Below, piece by piece: positions 7,808 through 39,965 of a stretch of 64,000 nucleotides of DNA. Each line of letters starts with the position of its first letter. The first letter of the stretch is position 1. Both the position numbers and the translations under genes were made by a program. The stretch is from positions 620,001 to 684,000 of the forward strand of contig NC_011146.1 in NCBI RefSeq assembly GCF_000020725.1, read 5' to 3'. Origin of the DNA: Citrifermentans bemidjiense Bem. Lineage in GTDB: Bacteria > Desulfobacterota > Desulfuromonadia > Geobacterales > Geobacteraceae. The notes beneath the pieces were generated by a model, which was not told the origin of the DNA, ran no database searches, and saw only the letters and a program-made list of their open reading frames with translations.

Positions 7808-7969
7808 ATGTCCACACCACTGATTGCTCTGGCAGTGATTCTCGCGGTATTCGCCGTGGTGTTAATACCTTTGATGATGGTGAAGTCGGGCCAGGCACCG
7901 GTAGACGAGCCGCGGCACGATCATGGCGGCCAGGCGAAAAAGAGCCACAGGAAGAAAAAGAAGCGCTGA
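7808..7969 (+). CDS. Small single-pass membrane protein
   Basis: 53 residues from ATG 7808, chosen because AGGAGGG lies six bases before it; the longer frame from 7742 is not supported. One hydrophobic helix fills residues 4-27, and a very basic tail follows (KKSHRKKKKR). The lysine-rich end should lie in the cytoplasm. It sits 43 bases before the YkgJ gene and may be cotranscribed. I recognise no family. Confidence 0.6.
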   Translation: MSTPLIALAVILAVFAVVLIPLMMVKSGQAPVDEPRHDHGGQAKKSHRKKKKR

Positions 7970-8012
7970 CCGGGGTCCTGTCACGGGAGATACCCCGGAA
8001 GAAAGGAAAGAG

Positions 8013-8732
8013 ATGACGGCAGAAAAGGCGATGGGCGACCTTCTGGATATGGTTAAACAGCAGCAGGTTTTTCTCGAGATGTTCGTGCGGTCCTGGGTCG
8101 ACGACTATCGCTCCAGCGGCGGCGCAATCTTCTGCGGCAAGGGGTGTCGCAACTGCTGCAGTCTTGCCGTCCATACCGGCTTTGCCGAGGCACTTGCCGT
8201 CGCCCGGCAGCTGGACGAGACGCAGGGGAGGGCGGTCGAGAGTTACGCAATGAAACTCAGGGAGCTGCTTAAGGGAGTGACCGAGCTTCCTGAATACCTG
8301 CGCCTGCACCGGCAGACCATGGGATTTTGCCCGCTTTTGACCGATGCCGGCGCATGCGGCGTCTATCCGGTGCGCCCTCTGTCCTGCCGCTCGCTCATCT
8401 CCACCCGGGAGAGCGTTTGGTGCGGCGCCGATTTCTCACAGCTTTCTCAGGCGGAACGGGAAGCGTTCGTGGCCGCGCTGGACCGGAAGGTGGTTGCCTT
8501 CCCGAGCCACTACGTCGCAGTGCTCCAGGAGAGCGGGAAAGAACTGGAGGAAGCTGGCGCCAAAAACATGCGTGAGCTTCTCGGATTCTCCCTCTATGGC
8601 AACCTCGGCGTCCTGGTCCATCTCTGCCGCAGCCACGGCTTTGCAGAGGCCTGCCTGGAGGGGAAAAGTTCTGCTGCCGGCTGCATCGCCGGGGCGGGGT
8701 TCGACCATCCGCTGCTGCTGACTCTCACCTAG
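8013..8732 (+). CDS. YkgJ family cysteine-cluster protein
   Basis: 239 residues from ATG 8013 (GGAAAG close upstream). Conserved cysteines are FCGKGCRNCC near residue 40-50 and the later pair GFCPLLTDAGACGVYPVRPLSC, the YkgJ/UPF0153 pattern thought to bind zinc or an iron-sulphur cluster. Biochemical role unknown in the family. The upstream small membrane protein is the only same-strand neighbour; the next genes run the other way. A second, divergent YkgJ-like gene lies at 37341-37997. Confidence 0.82.
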   Translation: MTAEKAMGDLLDMVKQQQVFLEMFVRSWVDDYRSSGGAIFCGKGCRNCCSLAVHTGFAEALAVARQLDETQGRAVESYAMKLRELLKGVTELPEYLRLHRQTMGFCPLLTDAGACGVYPVRPLSCRSLISTRESVWCGADFSQLSQAEREAFVAALDRKVVAFPSHYVAVLQESGKELEEAGAKNMRELLGFSLYGNLGVLVHLCRSHGFAEACLEGKSSAAGCIAGAGFDHPLLLTLT

Positions 8733-20061: not shown

Positions 20062-20871
20062 TTACTTCCCGCCGGTACCCATGCTGCCGCCGCTGCCAGT
20101 GCCAGTGGTTCCGCCGGTACCCATGCTGCCGCCGCTGCCAGTGCCGGTTGTTCCGCCAGTACCCATGCTGCCGCCGCTGCCGGTGCCGGTTGTTCCGCCA
20201 GTGCCCATGCTGCCAGTTCCTGTGGTTCCACCGGTCCCCATACTACCGGTACCCTGGTCATAAGTTCCACCGGTTCCTCTTTGCATGGTGCCGCCAGTAC
20301 CCTGGTCATAGGTTCCGCCGGTGCCTCTTTGCATGGTGCCGCCGGTGCCCTGGTCATAGGTCCCGCCGGTGCCTCTTTGCATGGTGCCGCCGGTACCCTG
20401 GTCATAAGTGCCGCCGGTGCCTCTTTGCATAGTGTCGCCGGTACCCTGGTCATAGGTGCCGCCGGTGCCTCTTTGCATGGTGCCGCCAGTACCCTGGTCG
20501 TAGGTGCCGCCGGTGCCTCTTTGCATAGTTCCGCTAGTACCGACGTTTCCGCCGGCACCGGTACCCATTGCGCCGCCGCTACCCGTTTCCGGCCCCACTT
20601 TTTCCACGCTGAAATCCTGCCTGGTGGTGGAATGTGCTCCCACACCGCTTGGCATGCTGGATTCTGTCAGGCCACCACCAGCAGTCCCTCTGGCGCTGCC
20701 TGTTTTGTGAGTCATTGTTTTGTGGTGCGTCTTGGAAGTTTTGCTCATGGTCCCGGCTTTGTGGTGCGTACCGGAATGTTTGGTTCCGGCGGCGTAGCCT
20801 GTACCTGTCACCAATCCCATCAGGCCTGCCATGGCTATCACTGTAAACAACGCCCTTCTCACGCTTCTCAT
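20062..20871 (-). CDS. Secreted Gly/Thr-rich tandem-repeat protein
   Basis: 269 residues. Signal peptide about 1-27 (ends GTGYA). A basic His/Lys/Thr part follows (about 28-62). From residue ~110 the protein is two sets of repeats: a 16-residue unit (GTMQRGTGGTYDQGTG, about five whole copies plus partial ones) and then a shorter GSMGTGGTTGTG unit. The 16-residue unit is a 48-bp DNA repeat. GGAGG lies 8 bases before ATG 20871. No catalytic motif; most likely an extended, disordered surface or periplasmic protein. Copy number should vary between strains. Confidence 0.7.
   Translation of the reverse strand: MRSVRRALFTVIAMAGLMGLVTGTGYAAGTKHSGTHHKAGTMSKTSKTHHKTMTHKTGSARGTAGGGLTESSMPSGVGAHSTTRQDFSVEKVGPETGSGGAMGTGAGGNVGTSGTMQRGTGGTYDQGTGGTMQRGTGGTYDQGTGDTMQRGTGGTYDQGTGGTMQRGTGGTYDQGTGGTMQRGTGGTYDQGTGGTMQRGTGGTYDQGTGSMGTGGTTGTGSMGTGGTTGTGSGGSMGTGGTTGTGSGGSMGTGGTTGTGSGGSMGTGGK
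20278..20530. repeat. 48-bp in-frame tandem repeats
   Basis: Starts of consecutive units at 20278, 20326, 20374, 20422 and 20470, with a degenerate sixth at 20518. Each unit encodes the same 16 residues on the minus strand. Substitutions between units are mostly silent, so purifying selection holds the peptide. Confidence 0.9.
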
Positions 20872-34526: not shown

Positions 34527-36131
34527 TTATGGTTCAGCAGGCCCGTCGAGAAACGCCTGCACCAAGGCCTTGCGGTCTATCTTGCTGTTGGAGGTCACCG
34601 GCAGGGAGGGGAGGTACCTGATCTGCTCCGGCACCATGTATTTCGGGAGATGGTCGCTGCAATGAACGACCAGTGTTTGGGGCTCGAGTTCGACCCCTTC
34701 GCGCAGGCATACGTAAGCGACGATCCTGCTTCCGGCGAGGTCGTCGGGGATGGCCACCGCAACCGCCTGCCGGATGTCGGGGTGGCTGTTCAGTACGATT
34801 TCGATCTCGCCCAACTCCACCCGGAACCCCTTGCTCTTCACCATATGGTCCTTGCGGCCGGCGAAGACGAAGTTGCCGGCGGCGTCCAGGCGCGCCATGT
34901 CCCCGGTCTTGTACACCCTGGCGTGGGCGGAGGGGTTGCGCGGATCCGGGGTGAACTGCGCCTGAGTTCTGCCGCAGTCGTTCCAGTAGCCCAAGGCCAC
35001 GGTGGAGCTGAGAACGTGCAGCTCACCCTCCTCTCCCGCGCCGGTCACCACGTTCCCCACCTCGTCGATAGCGAACACCTCGAAATTGGGGAAGGGGGTC
35101 CCGATCGGGATCTTCCAGGCCGCTTCCTCCACGACATCCGGGACCCTGAAATAGAGGGAGGAGTTGGCCTCGGTCTGGCCGTAGATGTTGTAAAAGACTG
35201 CAGCCGGCATGCACTGCTTCAGGATCTTCAGGTATTTGACCGGCATCAGGTCCCCGGAGAAGTGGACCAGGCGCAGCCTGTCCAGGGTGAGCCGGTCCAG
35301 CGCCCCCTGGTCCGCGAGCTTGGTAAGGAGCGACGCCACCGAGTTCCACACCGTGACTCCCTCGCTCTGCATGAAATCCGCCAGGCGCACCGGGAAGGCC
35401 GAGAGCGCATCGGGAATCAGCACCATCGTTGCAGCGCTTCTGGCGGCGCAGAAAATGTCGAAGATGGAGAGGTCGAAATGCAGCGGCGCGTGATTGGCCA
35501 GACGGTCCTGCGGCGATATCTCGAAGAAGCGGACAGCCATCTCAACGAAGGTGAGGGCGTTCAGGTGGGAGATCACCACCCCCTTGGGTGAGCCTGTGGA
35601 GCCTGAGGTGTGCAGGATATAGGCGGGAGCAGCGCCGCAAAGCCCGTCGTCCGCAGGGCACTCGCAGCTCTCGCCTAGGATCTCGTCCCAGCCGCTGCAG
35701 CTCATGCTGCCGGCCGGGTGGGGGAGTGTCACCGCCGGGGAGCCGGTGACGATGGCTGCGCGCAGCGGCGGGGCCTCCCCTGCCTCGGCCAGGAGTTGCT
35801 CCAGCAGTTGCGGCGCGGCGAGGACGATCTCGATGCCGCAGTGCCTGATGATGGAGGCCTGCCTGCTAGCCGGCGCCCCTGGGTCCAGTGGGACGTAGAT
35901 CGCGCCCGCCTTCAGGATGCCAAAGACGGAGACGATGGATTCAAGCGATTTGTTCATGAGGATTCCGACCCTGTCTCCTCTTTGCACGCCGTGCGCCTTC
36001 AGGGCTGCGCTTAGCTGGTTGCTCGCCGCCTCGAGCTCGGCGTAGGAGAGCTCCTCGTTGCGGAAGGAGACCGCGGTTTTGTCGGGGAAGGAGGTGGCGC
36101 TTCGGGTGAGTAATCGTTGCAGTAGGTACAT
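34527..36131 (-). CDS. Stand-alone amino-acid adenylation domain
   Basis: 534 residues, a free-standing ANL-family adenylation domain. Core motifs: YILHTSGSTGSPKG (A3), HFDLSIFDIF (A4), NIYGQTEA (A5), YKTGDMARLDAAG (A7), FRVELGEIE (A8) and NSKIDRKAL (A10, with the catalytic Lys). FDLS in A4 keeps the amino-acid Asp, so it likely activates an alpha-amino acid. My hand-aligned specificity code is D-L-F-N-H-S-I-S-S-K, which I cannot match. Lacks its own carrier, which is supplied by the ACP gene at the operon start. It is last in the operon, 24 bases after the dehydrogenase. Compare stand-alone adenylation proteins PltF/RedM/AnaC. Confidence 0.87.
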   Translation of the reverse strand: MYLLQRLLTRSATSFPDKTAVSFRNEELSYAELEAASNQLSAALKAHGVQRGDRVGILMNKSLESIVSVFGILKAGAIYVPLDPGAPASRQASIIRHCGIEIVLAAPQLLEQLLAEAGEAPPLRAAIVTGSPAVTLPHPAGSMSCSGWDEILGESCECPADDGLCGAAPAYILHTSGSTGSPKGVVISHLNALTFVEMAVRFFEISPQDRLANHAPLHFDLSIFDIFCAARSAATMVLIPDALSAFPVRLADFMQSEGVTVWNSVASLLTKLADQGALDRLTLDRLRLVHFSGDLMPVKYLKILKQCMPAAVFYNIYGQTEANSSLYFRVPDVVEEAAWKIPIGTPFPNFEVFAIDEVGNVVTGAGEEGELHVLSSTVALGYWNDCGRTQAQFTPDPRNPSAHARVYKTGDMARLDAAGNFVFAGRKDHMVKSKGFRVELGEIEIVLNSHPDIRQAVAVAIPDDLAGSRIVAYVCLREGVELEPQTLVVHCSDHLPKYMVPEQIRYLPSLPVTSNSKIDRKALVQAFLDGPAEP

Positions 36132-36155
36132 GGATGCCTCGCTGGGCCCCCTCCG

Positions 36156-37301
36156 CTAGAGCCCCAGGAAGGTGGCGATGATGTTGCGCTGGATCTCGGA
36201 GGTGCCGGAGTAGATCTTCCCGGCGATGGCGTCACGGAGGTTCCGCTCGAAGTCGTACTCCGCGCTGTAGCCGTAGGCCCCATGGATTTGCAGCGCATCG
36301 GTGCAGTTTTGCACGTAGCTTTCGCTGATGAAGAGCTTCGCCATCGCCGATTCCAGCGGCGCCCGTTTCCCCTGTCCCTTGAGCGTCGCCACTTGGTGCA
36401 GCATCAGCCGGGAGAGTTCGATGCGGACCTTCATGTCGGAGATCTTGTGCGAGATGGACTGGCATTTGCCTATCGCCTTGCCGAACTGCTGCCGCTCCTT
36501 GGCGTAGGCCACGCAATCCTCCAGGATCTTGTCCATCGCCCCCAGGTGCGCGGCGAAAAGGCAGCTCCGCTCCCATTCCATCTCGGAGTTGAAGATCGCG
36601 GCGCCGCTTCCTTCCTGCCCCAGACGGTTCTCCTCGGGAACCTCGCACTCCTCCAGGAACACTTCGCCCAAAGGGCAGGTCCTAAGGCCCATGGTTTCCA
36701 GCGGTTGCCCCGTGGAAAACCCGGGAAACCCTCTTTCCACGATGAAGGCGGAAACCCCGGCGAACCCCTTTTCCTTGCAGGTCACAGCGAACACCAGCAA
36801 CAGGTCGGCGATGGGGGCGTTGGTGATGAAGGTCTTGGAGCCGTTCAGGATGTACCTGTCCCCCCGCTTTTCCGCCCGGCACCTCATGCTGAAGGCGTCG
36901 GAGCCGGCATCGGGCTCCGTCATGGCGTGCCCGCCTCGGAGGCTGCCGGCGATGAGCCCGGGGAGATAGCGCTTTTTTTGCTCCTCGCTGCCGAAACGGT
37001 TGATGGGGGACTCGCAGGTCCAGACATGGGAGTTCAGGGAGAAAAGCAGGCCGCTGTCGAGGCAGGCGTAGCCGAGCCCCTCCATGGTGGCGATGGAGGT
37101 CATGGTGTCGAGCCCGAGCCCTCCGTACTTCTCGGGCATGGTGATGCCCGGGATGCCGAACTCGGCGCATTTTTCCCAACCGCGCTGGGAGAACTCGCCT
37201 TTTCTCTCGCGTTCCTTGGCGCCCTGGTTCAGTTCGCGCCGGGCGAACTCGATCGCCATCTGCTTGAAGTTCCTCTGCTCCTCGTTGAAGATCGCTTCCA
37301 T
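36156..37301 (-). CDS. Acyl-CoA-dehydrogenase-like flavoprotein, possibly aminoacyl-carrier oxidase
   Basis: 381 residues, full-length ACAD fold with FAD: AMTEPDAGSDAFSM, KTFITNAPIADL, QIHGAYGYSAEYD. Two points matter. The usual catalytic Glu of short/medium-chain enzymes (IYEGT) is Ser here (IYSGTSEIQR). Instead Glu244 in MEWERS sits where isovaleryl-CoA dehydrogenase and, as I recall, the prolyl-carrier oxidase AnaB (Glu244) keep their base. In company with a stand-alone adenylation domain and carrier protein this points to oxidation of a carrier-bound amino acid rather than a CoA ester. GAGG precedes ATG 37301. Confidence 0.85.
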   Translation of the reverse strand: MEAIFNEEQRNFKQMAIEFARRELNQGAKERERKGEFSQRGWEKCAEFGIPGITMPEKYGGLGLDTMTSIATMEGLGYACLDSGLLFSLNSHVWTCESPINRFGSEEQKKRYLPGLIAGSLRGGHAMTEPDAGSDAFSMRCRAEKRGDRYILNGSKTFITNAPIADLLLVFAVTCKEKGFAGVSAFIVERGFPGFSTGQPLETMGLRTCPLGEVFLEECEVPEENRLGQEGSGAAIFNSEMEWERSCLFAAHLGAMDKILEDCVAYAKERQQFGKAIGKCQSISHKISDMKVRIELSRLMLHQVATLKGQGKRAPLESAMAKLFISESYVQNCTDALQIHGAYGYSAEYDFERNLRDAIAGKIYSGTSEIQRNIIATFLGL

Positions 37302-37340
37302 GGGCGGGCCTCGTACGGCCGGTTCGGCCGGGATCTGGAA

Positions 37341-37997
37341 TCACACGGTGAGTAAAAGCGAGGTCAGCCCGTAATAGGGAGGAAACCCCGCCTCGCACTT
37401 CAGGGCATTGAAGGTGGCCAGGGAAATCCCCAGTAACTCCCGGACCGACTCGAGGTATGCCAGCCGCGTCGCTTGGTCCAGCGACTGTTTGAGGCTTGGG
37501 CAGGCGTAGATCAGGCATTGCAGCGGGCGCTCGGCGTGCGGCAGCAGGCAGCCGCGCTCACCCAGGTGGGCGCATCTGCTGTCCTGCCTCAAGTGGCTCC
37601 CTTGTGCAGTTGTCCTGGGCTTTCCCAGACCCAGCGCGGACTCGATGCGGAGCCGGTAATAGGCGGGTAACGGCTGGAGTGGCTGCTCAGAAAAGGCGGT
37701 CACCTGCTTATGGCTGTACTTCCTCAACCAGAAATCGATGGCAGTGAAGTAGTGTTCGGCCGGCTCGCCACAGCAGGCCCCCTGGCAGCTGCGGCAGCCG
37801 GCGAAGGAAGGGAGGTCGAGCCCAGCGATCCGCTCCTGGCATTTGATGCGGTTGCCGTTCAGCTTTTGCAGGGCTCCCCTGGTCGGCTCGGAGACCTCAT
37901 GGTCCTTGTCCAGTATTCCCTGCGTCAGGGCGGAGATCCTTTGAAACTGCCGGTAGCGCCGGGAGAAATGCCAGAAATCGTGCAGGTCCTTCCGCAT
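37341..37997 (-). CDS. YkgJ-like cysteine-cluster protein in the carrier operon
   Basis: 218 residues. The cluster reads CRSCQGACCGEP, then CAHLGERGCLL and PLQCLIYACP, with about ten Cys in all; such proteins may bind an iron-sulphur cluster or zinc. It is shorter and more divergent than the YkgJ gene at 8013-8732. It lies between a ureohydrolase-like gene (11-base gap) and the ACAD gene (39 bases), clearly inside the operon. A redox partner or metal-handling helper for one of these enzymes would fit, but this is guesswork. Confidence 0.75.
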   Translation of the reverse strand: MRKDLHDFWHFSRRYRQFQRISALTQGILDKDHEVSEPTRGALQKLNGNRIKCQERIAGLDLPSFAGCRSCQGACCGEPAEHYFTAIDFWLRKYSHKQVTAFSEQPLQPLPAYYRLRIESALGLGKPRTTAQGSHLRQDSRCAHLGERGCLLPHAERPLQCLIYACPSLKQSLDQATRLAYLESVRELLGISLATFNALKCEAGFPPYYGLTSLLLTV

Positions 37998-38008
37998 GGC
38001 CGCATCCT

Positions 38009-39007
38009 TTACCGGTCCGGTCCCGGCCGGTCGCGCTTGCGCTGCGCCATCCCCGAAAGCGCGTAGATCATCGCCCAGGCGGCCAGGTGCGACGAATATC
38101 CCTGCGGGTCCTGGCCGGGATAGACCTCGACGTAATCGAGGCCGCTGATCCCCGAGGCTCCGATTTGGTGCAGCGCCGGCAGCAGTTCGCTGGGGAGCAG
38201 CCCGTTGAAATCGGCGGGACCTCCCGGGTTGTAACCGGCATCGATGCAGTCGCTGCAGATGGTGACGAAGACGTGCCTCGTCTCGTGGTGCGCGATCCGT
38301 ATCGCTTCCTCGGTGACGGCGCTCATCCCCCTTTCCCTGACTTCCCTGGTGGTGATGACGCGCGCCCCCATGCTTTGGGCGTACTCATACTGGGTAGGTG
38401 AGTTCCGCGGGCCGCGGATGCCCAGATGCACGATGCTCTCTTTGCGGACCTGCGGGATTTGGGAAATCCTGTGGATCGGGCCGCAACGGGCGAACTGGTC
38501 GCTGCCGAAGGACTTGGCGTTGTCCAAGTGTGCGTCCAGGTGGATGACGCCGATTTTGCCCTCTTCTCCGTCCGCGAGCGCCCTGATGATCTCCGGGGTG
38601 AAGGAGTGGTCGCCTCCCAGCACGAAGGGGATGCTCTGGTTGCGGTAGACCCGCTGCATGGCAGCGTGCACGTTGCGCATGGTCTCGGCGGGGTCGTTGG
38701 GGTGTACCGGAATGTCCCCGATGTCGCCGAGCGTCAGGTGGTCGAACAGGTCGATCTCGTACTCGGGGAGGAATCCACCGTAACGCGCCGAGGCGTGGCG
38801 GATGCTCCTGGGCGCTAGCTCGCACCCTGTGAAGGAGCCCCAGGTGACGGTCCCTTCCCATGGGACCCCGGCGATCATCACGTCGTAGCCTGCTGCCGGT
38901 TTCCTGTAGTCGAGAACGGGTACGCCGAGAAAGGAGGGAGTGTCGCCGTACACGGTAGGGAGCGAGGCCTTCCTGTTGGGAACCATGGGGATGTCTTTGC
39001 TGTTCAT
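38009..39007 (-). CDS. Ureohydrolase (agmatinase/arginase)-like enzyme with altered metal site
   Basis: 332 residues from ATG 39007 with GGAG upstream; the open frame continues far upstream but reads as non-coding. Arginase-fold landmarks: GVPWEGT, GGDHSFTPEI (His134) and HLDAHLDN (Asp158, His160, Asp162). The final metal motif, usually SFDIDxxDP, is TICSDCIDAGYNP here: the first Asp is Cys251 and the second is kept (Asp253), and the Pro is Ala. So one metal ligand is changed, and the second metal may be lost. Family members cleave guanidino groups (agmatine, guanidinobutyrate, proclavaminate). Its place in an adenylation-carrier operon suggests it acts on a guanidino or amidino group in the product path. 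Confidence 0.8.
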   Translation of the reverse strand: MNSKDIPMVPNRKASLPTVYGDTPSFLGVPVLDYRKPAAGYDVMIAGVPWEGTVTWGSFTGCELAPRSIRHASARYGGFLPEYEIDLFDHLTLGDIGDIPVHPNDPAETMRNVHAAMQRVYRNQSIPFVLGGDHSFTPEIIRALADGEEGKIGVIHLDAHLDNAKSFGSDQFARCGPIHRISQIPQVRKESIVHLGIRGPRNSPTQYEYAQSMGARVITTREVRERGMSAVTEEAIRIAHHETRHVFVTICSDCIDAGYNPGGPADFNGLLPSELLPALHQIGASGISGLDYVEVYPGQDPQGYSSHLAAWAMIYALSGMAQRKRDRPGPDR

Positions 39008-39033
39008 CGTGACTCCTTTCGTGCCGTGGGCCT

Positions 39034-39684
39034 TCAGTCTGCCGGGTCGCCGGTCACGTACAGTTTCCTGGATAAAAGCAGCCGGGTAGCTCTCACGCGG
39101 TTCAATTCCCGCCAGCGCAGGGTCCGGTGCACCCACAGCGCCGGGACGTTGTCGGACCAGAAAAAACCGTATGCCTTGGTGTACCCATGCCGCTTCAAAA
39201 GGTGGAGTGCGCCGTTTTGCAGTGCTGCGGCGAGGTTTCCGCCGCGGTTGGCCGGATCGACAAACATATCGAAGGTGTAGACCTCCTTGGGGGCGCACCT
39301 AACCCCCAGCCACAACTCGTCGGGGTGCTTGTAGCAGTCGTTGCCGGCCTTGGAGTCGGCGCACCAGATATCCCCGAACACCTTGTTTCCCTTGACGAGG
39401 GCATACCCGCGGTAACCGCGCTTCAGGTAGTTGAGCGTCTTCAGGTGCCTGCTCTTGAGCGGATAGGCGAGTTGCCGGTTCTGCAGCAGTTCCTGTGTCA
39501 GCTCGACTACCTCCTCGTCATGGGGGCGGGCGAAATCCGCCACCGGCCTCAGGTTGTCGAGCTCTATCTCCACCGGCACGGCCTCGCGGTTCAGGTAGAC
39601 GGTCTCCCTAAGCAGGCTGTTTATGCTGCCGTGTTTTACCGTCTCCAACACCTGGACCAGGCGCATTTTGCAGTACTGTAGCAT
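39034..39684 (-). CDS. GNAT-type acyltransferase
   Basis: 216 residues from ATG 39684, chosen because GGAGTGGGAGG precedes it; the open frame upstream overlaps the carrier gene in another frame. The C-terminal half has the acyl-CoA-binding pattern of the GNAT fold (MFVDPANRGGNLAAALQNGA, HGYTKAYGFFWSDNVPALW). The N-terminal ~90 residues are not recognisable. Sits directly after the carrier protein gene (23 bases). It could acylate the amino group of the carrier-bound amino acid or release the product from the carrier to an amine. Confidence 0.75.
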   Translation of the reverse strand: MLQYCKMRLVQVLETVKHGSINSLLRETVYLNREAVPVEIELDNLRPVADFARPHDEEVVELTQELLQNRQLAYPLKSRHLKTLNYLKRGYRGYALVKGNKVFGDIWCADSKAGNDCYKHPDELWLGVRCAPKEVYTFDMFVDPANRGGNLAAALQNGALHLLKRHGYTKAYGFFWSDNVPALWVHRTLRWRELNRVRATRLLLSRKLYVTGDPAD

Positions 39685-39707
39685 CGCCTCCCACTCCTTT
39701 GGCCACC

Positions 39708-39965
39708 TCACCCCTTGGCAGTCAGCTTGTAATTGATGAAGTTGACCACAGATCCGATGGTTTCGAAGTTCTCCGGAACGATCTCGGTGTCGGCAATCTG
39801 CAAGTCGAATTCCTGCTCCAGGTAAGCTATCAGCCGCTGGACCCCCAGCGAATCGACGATCCCTTTGTCTATCAGGGAGTCGGAGGGAGAGAGCGTTCCT
39901 TTGTGTGCCTGGGTCATCATTTCCTTTTCTATGAAGCTTCTGACTGTTTCGGTGAAGTCGACCAT
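39708..39965 (-). CDS. Acyl/peptidyl carrier protein
   Basis: 85 residues. Four-helix carrier with the phosphopantetheine site Ser39 in DSLGVQ and the usual acidic surface (IVDSLGVQRLIAYLEQEFDL). It is the first gene of the operon; GGGAGG precedes ATG 39965. As the only carrier here it should be loaded by the adenylation protein at the other end of the operon and serve the dehydrogenase and GNAT enzymes. No phosphopantetheinyl transferase is in the window. Confidence 0.88.
   Translation of the reverse strand: MVDFTETVRSFIEKEMMTQAHKGTLSPSDSLIDKGIVDSLGVQRLIAYLEQEFDLQIADTEIVPENFETIGSVVNFINYKLTAKG

Follow-up and report, generated by a model that had tools for sequence, protein, structure and literature searches.

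The trio of adenylation protein, acyl-CoA dehydrogenase (ACAD)-family protein and carrier protein is known from pyrrole and anatoxin pathways. In the PltF/PltE/PltL, PigI/PigA/PigG and AnaC/AnaB/AnaD systems, a stand-alone adenylation protein, a free carrier and a dehydrogenase of this family are encoded side by side, and the same is true of an operon at positions 34527-39965 of a 64,000-nucleotide stretch of the Citrifermentans bemidjiense Bem genome (NC_011146.1, positions 620,001 to 684,000; the whole stretch analysed is called the window below). Compared with the prolyl-carrier modules, the operon differs by an adenylation pocket code other than that of proline, by an ACAD scoring below the PigA and RedW cut-offs, and by an additional metal enzyme and acyltransferase. 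It comprises six genes, all on the minus strand, which fill the interval as one compact block and are transcribed in the order carrier protein, GNAT acyltransferase, ureohydrolase-fold protein, Cys-cluster protein, ACAD-family protein and adenylation protein. The intergenic gaps in this order are 23, 26, 11, 39 and 24 bases, which confirms from the open reading frames (ORFs) what an earlier note on this DNA had described as six same-strand genes with gaps of 11-39 bases. The starts used here for the ureohydrolase (39007) and the GNAT (39684) were chosen; the mechanical ORFs of both begin further upstream.

We propose, at a probability of about 40%, that the operon is an acyl-donor cassette in which carrier loading, oxidation, metal-dependent hydrolysis and acyl transfer would follow one another. 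The core of the cassette consists of the adenylation protein, an AnaB/PigA-like dehydrogenase, the free carrier, an acyltransferase and a metal enzyme. The proposal starts from observations on the enzyme classes, on the linkage of the genes, on the mutual exclusion of the metal enzymes where tested, and on one gene fusion.

Linkage of the cassette and occupants of its metal-enzyme slot

The six genes are one linked unit. A ureohydrolase homologue with 80-100% identity was found in 12 of 19 congeneric genomes, that of C. bemidjiense Bem included, and the ureohydrolase of C. bremense R1 shares 99% identity with the window protein. Congeners differ in having or lacking the block at a single site, the intergenic space that separates hpt from a radical-SAM gene. 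When these flanks were searched in ten congeners, the radical-SAM gene was found in all ten and a close hpt (88-97% identity) in six; the four without a close hpt are uninformative for the insertion site. The two flanking genes are 203-205 bp apart in the cassette-free congeners G001, G010 and G012, and 5.76-5.89 kb apart in the cassette-bearing congeners G003, G007 and G009. Since the homologue recurs in 12 of 19 congeners and the block comes and goes at a single intergenic site, the linkage is more than chance. A scan of named genome contigs with two motif patterns, an uneven sample, gave 64 loci. In the 20 related loci L031-L050 (ureohydrolase at least 62% identical), the carrier and the ACAD were each present in 19, the adenylation protein in 18 and the GNAT in 17. 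The partner genes all share the strand of the ureohydrolase but have no fixed order, and contig ends truncate some of the loci. That the core genes stay together on one strand in relatives agrees with the earlier note, which had taken them for one system.

In relatives, the place of the ureohydrolase can be taken by other metal enzymes, a replacement that the earlier interpretation did not contain. A class-level survey detected the ACAD (E ≤1e-110) in 44 of 276 genomes; regions were taken for 33, and the remaining 11 come from congeners whose cassette is of the window's type. Of the four genomes with the ACAD only in a separate phylum sample (297 genomes, see below), two have adenylation-carrier-ACAD triads (L109 and L110) and two (L111 and L112) do not; the latter two have the ACAD and, by visual inspection of ORF starts, neighbours of fatty-acid type, and an ACAD match at E 1e-110 was rejected as a sufficient mark of the cassette. 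Slot content was counted over 47 loci (L031-L050, L125-L132, L137 and L140-L157), leaving aside L133, L134, L135, L136, L138 and L139, which repeat L042, L044, L046, L047, L041 and L050, respectively. Contig ends cut L039, L045, L047, L049, L144, L147 and L148. A ureohydrolase occupies the slot in 22 loci (and in the window), an Amidohydro_2 protein in 16 and a cupin-like protein in six. No metal enzyme was seen in the remaining three, two of which (L144 and L147) end inside the adenylation gene, while the third, L128 (genome G510), has the cupin on another contig. Two of the families were found together in none of the 47 loci. The Amidohydro_2 protein exceeded the PF04909 cut-off in three of the four sequences scanned and carries a D-x-H-x-H-P motif in 14 of 16. 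The cupin-like protein (~385 amino acids, aa) matched ectoine synthase (PF06339) weakly in two of three scanned, both below the cut-off; that of L131 lies >9 kb from its ACAD, yet was counted.

Searched for genome-wide, the cupin-like protein was present in seven of 40 genomes, all of them of the cupin type with a cassette, and in none of the 20 ureohydrolase and 13 Amidohydro_2 genomes. The Amidohydro_2 protein was present in four of 36 genomes, which were the four positive controls (0/20 ureohydrolase genomes, 0/7 cupin genomes, 0/5 ureohydrolase-free congeners). The ureohydrolase was absent from all seven cupin genomes and present in G479. G008 and G015, two congeners that lack the window's cassette, carry an Amidohydro_2-type cassette (L150 and L155, respectively), and the only ureohydrolase homologues found in them are distant. 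A phylogeny of 43 adenylation proteins places the ureohydrolase locus L126 as the sister of four cupin loci (support 1.0) that share its pocket code, and this group is nested within a ureohydrolase clade. The 15 Amidohydro_2 sequences in the tree make up a single clade (support 1.0). As judged from these sequences, the pattern is that of one metal enzyme displaced by an unrelated one for what would be an equivalent step, at least between ureohydrolase and cupin.

The ureohydrolase-fold protein of the window (38009-39007; 332 aa) is clear in its fold and family (PF00491, 217.6 bits; predicted local distance difference test score of the model 92.6; Foldseek matches to guanidinase 9fek, metformin hydrolase and guanidinopropionase). 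It stays under the cut-offs of all five NCBIfam models matched, which are of agmatinase, formimidoylglutamase and arginase type (125.9/302, 125.6/229, 112.5/174, 55.7/228 and 41.9/381 bits). In the alignment with 7esr, Cys251 takes the place of the first Asp of the D-x-D metal motif (C-S-D), and Ala173 that of a His of the H-T-C-P stretch; the Glu aligned with that of the E-V-x-P stretch is retained. C-x-D was found in 70 of the 74 loci scanned (seven of these being repeats of counted genomes). Among the four loci lacking it, three have a gene truncated or split ahead of the motif, and the fourth is L094, a distant protein with D-I-D.

The metal enzyme might act before the carrier, hydrolysing a free guanidino, amidino or cyclic-amidine compound and thereby supplying the amino acid for adenylation. 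This order of events, which we regard as unlikely, can draw on the retained Glu and on stand-alone members of the subfamily, which probably act on free small molecules because of their neighbours. L113 has its gene beside that for the branched polyamine synthase BpsA and L114 (the genome of L051) beside S-adenosylmethionine decarboxylase/spermidine synthase; stand-alone members in Bacillota and other groups adjoin a PF14196 ATC_hydrolase, a hydantoinase/carbamoylase-family enzyme, IclR regulators and transporters. These Bacillota neighbourhoods gave no clue to the reaction. Hydrolysis ahead of the carrier is disfavoured by the occupation of the slot by three families, the adenylation pockets being closely related across the ureohydrolase/cupin swap, and by the fact that the metal enzymes always adjoin carrier genes in these cassettes.

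Some of the stand-alone loci deserve separate mention. The stand-alone genes of L113 (347-6813) and L114/L051 (L114 7569-13172) also lie near a nickel-pincer isomerase gene (NCBIfam group 22). In L053, L064, L076, L080-L082, L084, L086, L092 and L093, a Cys-motif ureohydrolase occurs with PF14196 ATC_hydrolase-like, carbamoylase-family, IclR and ABC/Nramp transporter genes, and neighbourhoods of this Bacillota type are likely catabolic islands. In L092 (10001-10979, Sporomusa ovata) the ureohydrolase appears as two ORFs.

Acyltransferase, polysaccharide genes and loaded substrate

Outside Citrifermentans and Geomonas, most loci read gene by gene are polysaccharide clusters with polyprenyl sugar transferases, glycosyltransferases and XrtA-type genes. 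This link to surface-glycan gene clusters was likewise absent from the first interpretation of the operon. A single ORF of 422 aa in L046 joins the GNAT to a PF02397 sugar transferase, and the GNAT adjoins such a transferase in L044, L047 and L137. A CCG/4Fe-4S membrane protein is encoded beside the alpha subunit of electron-transfer flavoprotein (ETF) in L044 and L046, an arrangement consistent with anaerobes passing electrons from the ACAD to quinone. Beside the cassette of L038 (3526-17194) we also noted genes for a phosphopantetheinyl transferase, a 755-aa carrier-domain protein and a non-ribosomal synthetase with a DVWHISLVDK pocket.

The window's acyltransferase (39034-39684; 216 aa) has a predicted GNAT fold, which fits the acyltransferase role suggested for it earlier; its PF00583 score (16.3 bits) is below the cut-off of 20.7. 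Counting the window, its family occurs in 19 of the 23 ureohydrolase cassettes; it also occurs in 13 of 16 Amidohydro_2 loci. A second GNAT family replaces it in L126 and in all seven cupin genomes, L050 has a hexapeptide acyltransferase instead, and no acyltransferase was found at L043 and L049. The acyltransferase, too, is exchanged between families. One could imagine that the amine acceptor is itself a product of the metal enzyme, such as a polyamine derived from a guanidino-polyamine, and that the GNAT acylates it, the product being an acylated polyamine and not a glycan. We consider this improbable: the cassettes of relatives lie amid polysaccharide genes, with a sugar transferase joined to the GNAT or encoded beside it, and the Amidohydro_2 and cupin replacements are not known to have a polyamine role.

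The ACAD-family protein of the cassette (36156-37301; 381 aa; PF02771/PF02770/PF00441) has a prolyl-acyl carrier protein dehydrogenase, 4irn, as its closest solved structure (410.5 bits) and scores below the curated cut-offs of the PigA (440.5 vs 500 bits) and RedW (423.7 vs 650 bits) models. Its M-E-x-E-R stretch is kept in all 19 cassette ACADs aligned (L039 and L054 are outside the alignment), and we take the Glu-Arg of this stretch to be the base of AnaB-type enzymes. The stand-alone adenylation protein (34527-36131; 534 aa; PF00501 and PF13193; TIGR01733, 354.1 bits vs cut-off 317.4) finds its best single-domain chain match in the prolyl-carrier ligase 6o6e (277.7 bits), multidomain synthetases outscoring it by adding up several domains. 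These matches to 4irn and 6o6e support the prolyl-carrier oxidation logic that had been recognized in the trio.

The adenylation pocket reads DLFNHSISSK (D220, L221, F224, N263, H290, S292, I316, S324, S325 and K517). Among the 20 readable pockets of ureohydrolase cassettes (window included), 15 are DLFNHS[IV]SSK, four DLFN[LI]S[LV]SSK and one, that of L043, DIFYVALVIK. Cupin loci have DLFNHSISSK (four) or DMFNLAMSSK (two), and all 16 Amidohydro_2 loci have (D)MFK[LI][AG]xGSK, the first residue being unread in one. The triads L109 and L110 have DLFYLALVCK, presumably the stand-alone proline code, from which the window pocket differs at six of ten positions. Because the pockets of the window and its kin depart from this code, the substrate has probably moved away from proline. 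An ordinary pyrrole or dehydroproline module, loading and oxidising proline as in pyoluteorin or anatoxin with the ureohydrolase as a passenger, is very improbable, since the nearness of ACAD and adenylation protein to prolyl enzymes, the presumed proline code of the two triads and the DIFYVALVIK pocket beside a ureohydrolase in L043 are set against the six changed positions and a slot occupied in 44 of 47 loci, with the remaining three truncated or divided between contigs. The guanidino amino acid guessed at in the earlier note is unsupported as the loaded substrate: the only acidic residue of the pocket is at the position taken as the alpha-amine binder. Guanidine chemistry is possible by way of the metal-enzyme family. 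Pocket codes for Cys, Ala and Pro fit the window pocket only in part, and none was used as a prediction.

The free carrier protein (39708-39965; 85 aa) has the Ser of a DSLG motif and matches PF00550 (27.8 bits vs cut-off 20.8). Two phosphopantetheinyl transferases are encoded in the same genome and could be the makers of holo-carrier. Within about 1.4 kb of the second of them lies a gene for an adenylation-type protein (2424829-2426517, minus strand) with 26% identity to the cassette ligases. With one promoter-like site found vs 1.2 expected by chance, there is no evidence for a promoter of the operon's own.

The Cys-cluster protein (37341-37997; 218 aa) may be YkgJ-like, though only by its cysteine pattern, six Cys being common to it and a PF03692 CxxCxxCC protein of the window at 22% identity. 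This second Cys-cluster protein (7923-8732, plus strand) scores 23.4 bits against PF03692, just above the cut-off of 23. No Pfam match, PF03692 included, was obtained for the operon's protein and three orthologues, and no NCBIfam match for the operon's protein. The gene is present in the window and in six of the 20 loci L031-L050, all six Citrifermentans or Geomonas. It is rejected as a core member and, contrary to its earlier treatment as an integral partner, is among the loci seen an accessory of these two genera. Elsewhere in the window, a 269-aa ORF (20062-20871, minus strand) consists largely of Gly/Thr-rich repeats.

Proposed reaction sequence

In the proposed acyl-donor cassette, the adenylation protein, classed by its sequence, would charge the free carrier with an amino acid that is small, neutral or polar, and possibly similar to proline. 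The flavin dehydrogenase may oxidise the carrier-bound aminoacyl group at C-alpha/C-beta, as its AnaB/PigA kin suggest, and the electrons would probably pass to ETF and quinone, ETF genes being seen in relatives. A metal-dependent enzyme, here the Cys-motif ureohydrolase, would hydrolyse a C-N or C=N bond, perhaps that of an imine from the oxidation step. Hydrolysis of such a carrier-bound bond is suggested because three mutually exclusive enzyme families fill one slot. It is a reaction common to ureohydrolases and amidohydrolases; HutG, a ureohydrolase, and HutF, an amidohydrolase, acting on the same formimino compound may serve as a precedent. Ectoine synthase is an amidine-forming enzyme, and a part for the cupin in the hydrolysis step would follow from a weak likeness to it. 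The GNAT would take the acyl group off the carrier and attach it to an amine. For the relatives, the likeliest acceptor is an amino sugar, belonging either to a surface polysaccharide or to a lipid-linked glycan.

Several points weigh against this sequence. We infer the substrate, the hydrolysis of a carrier-bound product, the type of bond and the amino-sugar acceptor. In a phylum sample of 297 genomes, the ACAD (E 1e-110) was found in seven and the ureohydrolase (E 1e-60) in five; three genomes have both, side by side, four the ACAD only and two the ureohydrolase only. Ureohydrolases of the same subfamily stand alone, with no carrier genes near, in L113 (63% identity) and L114 (54%), and those of the Bacillota loci L052-L093 (~36-51%) have no cassette either. 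None of the three metal-enzyme families is represented in the triads L109 and L110, and therefore the metal-enzyme step would be dispensable for some substrates. The assignment of the cupin is weak by its sequence, and in most Amidohydro_2 genomes the absence of the ureohydrolase holds for the fetched stretch. The counts of DegT aminotransferase (23), PF02397 sugar transferase (12) and FemAB (11) over the 47 loci fit the glycan setting, and that of ETF-alpha (12) fits the electron path; those for DegT, sugar transferase and ETF are raw, without a background rate. No sugar genes of these families were found near the window cassette or near those of L031-L037, the seven loci most closely related to it. 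At its exosortase locus the C. bemidjiense Bem genome has no matching gene set, and this locus was rejected as a glycan partner.

A wider view would make these loci modular glycan-acylation cassettes, with ETF-coupled oxidation on a carrier, C=N or C-N hydrolysis by three interchangeable metal enzymes, and transfer of keto-acyl or ring-opened groups onto amino sugars. Taken as a whole this is doubtful. If true, carrier-bound oxidative deamination would be a route to surface-glycan decorations, and carrier chemistry in the style of natural products would operate at the outer surface of common anaerobic sediment bacteria. It would predict acyl groups, so far unsought, on the polysaccharides of sediment bacteria and would give the Cys-motif ureohydrolase subfamily a setting. 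The three-way swap makes the missing reaction testable, because three unrelated enzymes should perform equivalent chemistry on related carrier-bound groups.

Comparison with described systems

The ureohydrolase shares its fold and most metal-site residues with agmatinase, guanidinopropionase, guanidinase and formimidoylglutamase; it differs from the family by the Cys in D-x-D, by Ala173 and by falling below the five NCBIfam cut-offs. The exosortase-A-associated ligase model TIGR03098 is the second-best NCBIfam match of the adenylation protein, and some relatives lie in XrtA-type clusters; the window protein reaches only 324 bits against its cut-off of 592.35. Among the matches listed for open-licence papers, none described the metal-enzyme slot or its exchange between families, and none the changed pocket or the polysaccharide setting.

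Two described systems resemble the proposed acyl transfer. The tetronate genes of Vibrio cholerae O1 likewise provide a carrier-based acyl supply for a polysaccharide amino sugar; the acyl group differs in not being derived from an amino acid, and no ACAD or metal hydrolase is known to take part. In the pyrrole transfer of clorobiocin and coumermycin (CloN genes), an amino-acid-derived carrier-bound acyl group is likewise passed to a sugar by an acyltransferase; no ureohydrolase-type enzyme is known to be involved, and the acceptor is the hydroxyl of an antibiotic deoxysugar, in contrast to the polysaccharide amino sugar proposed here.

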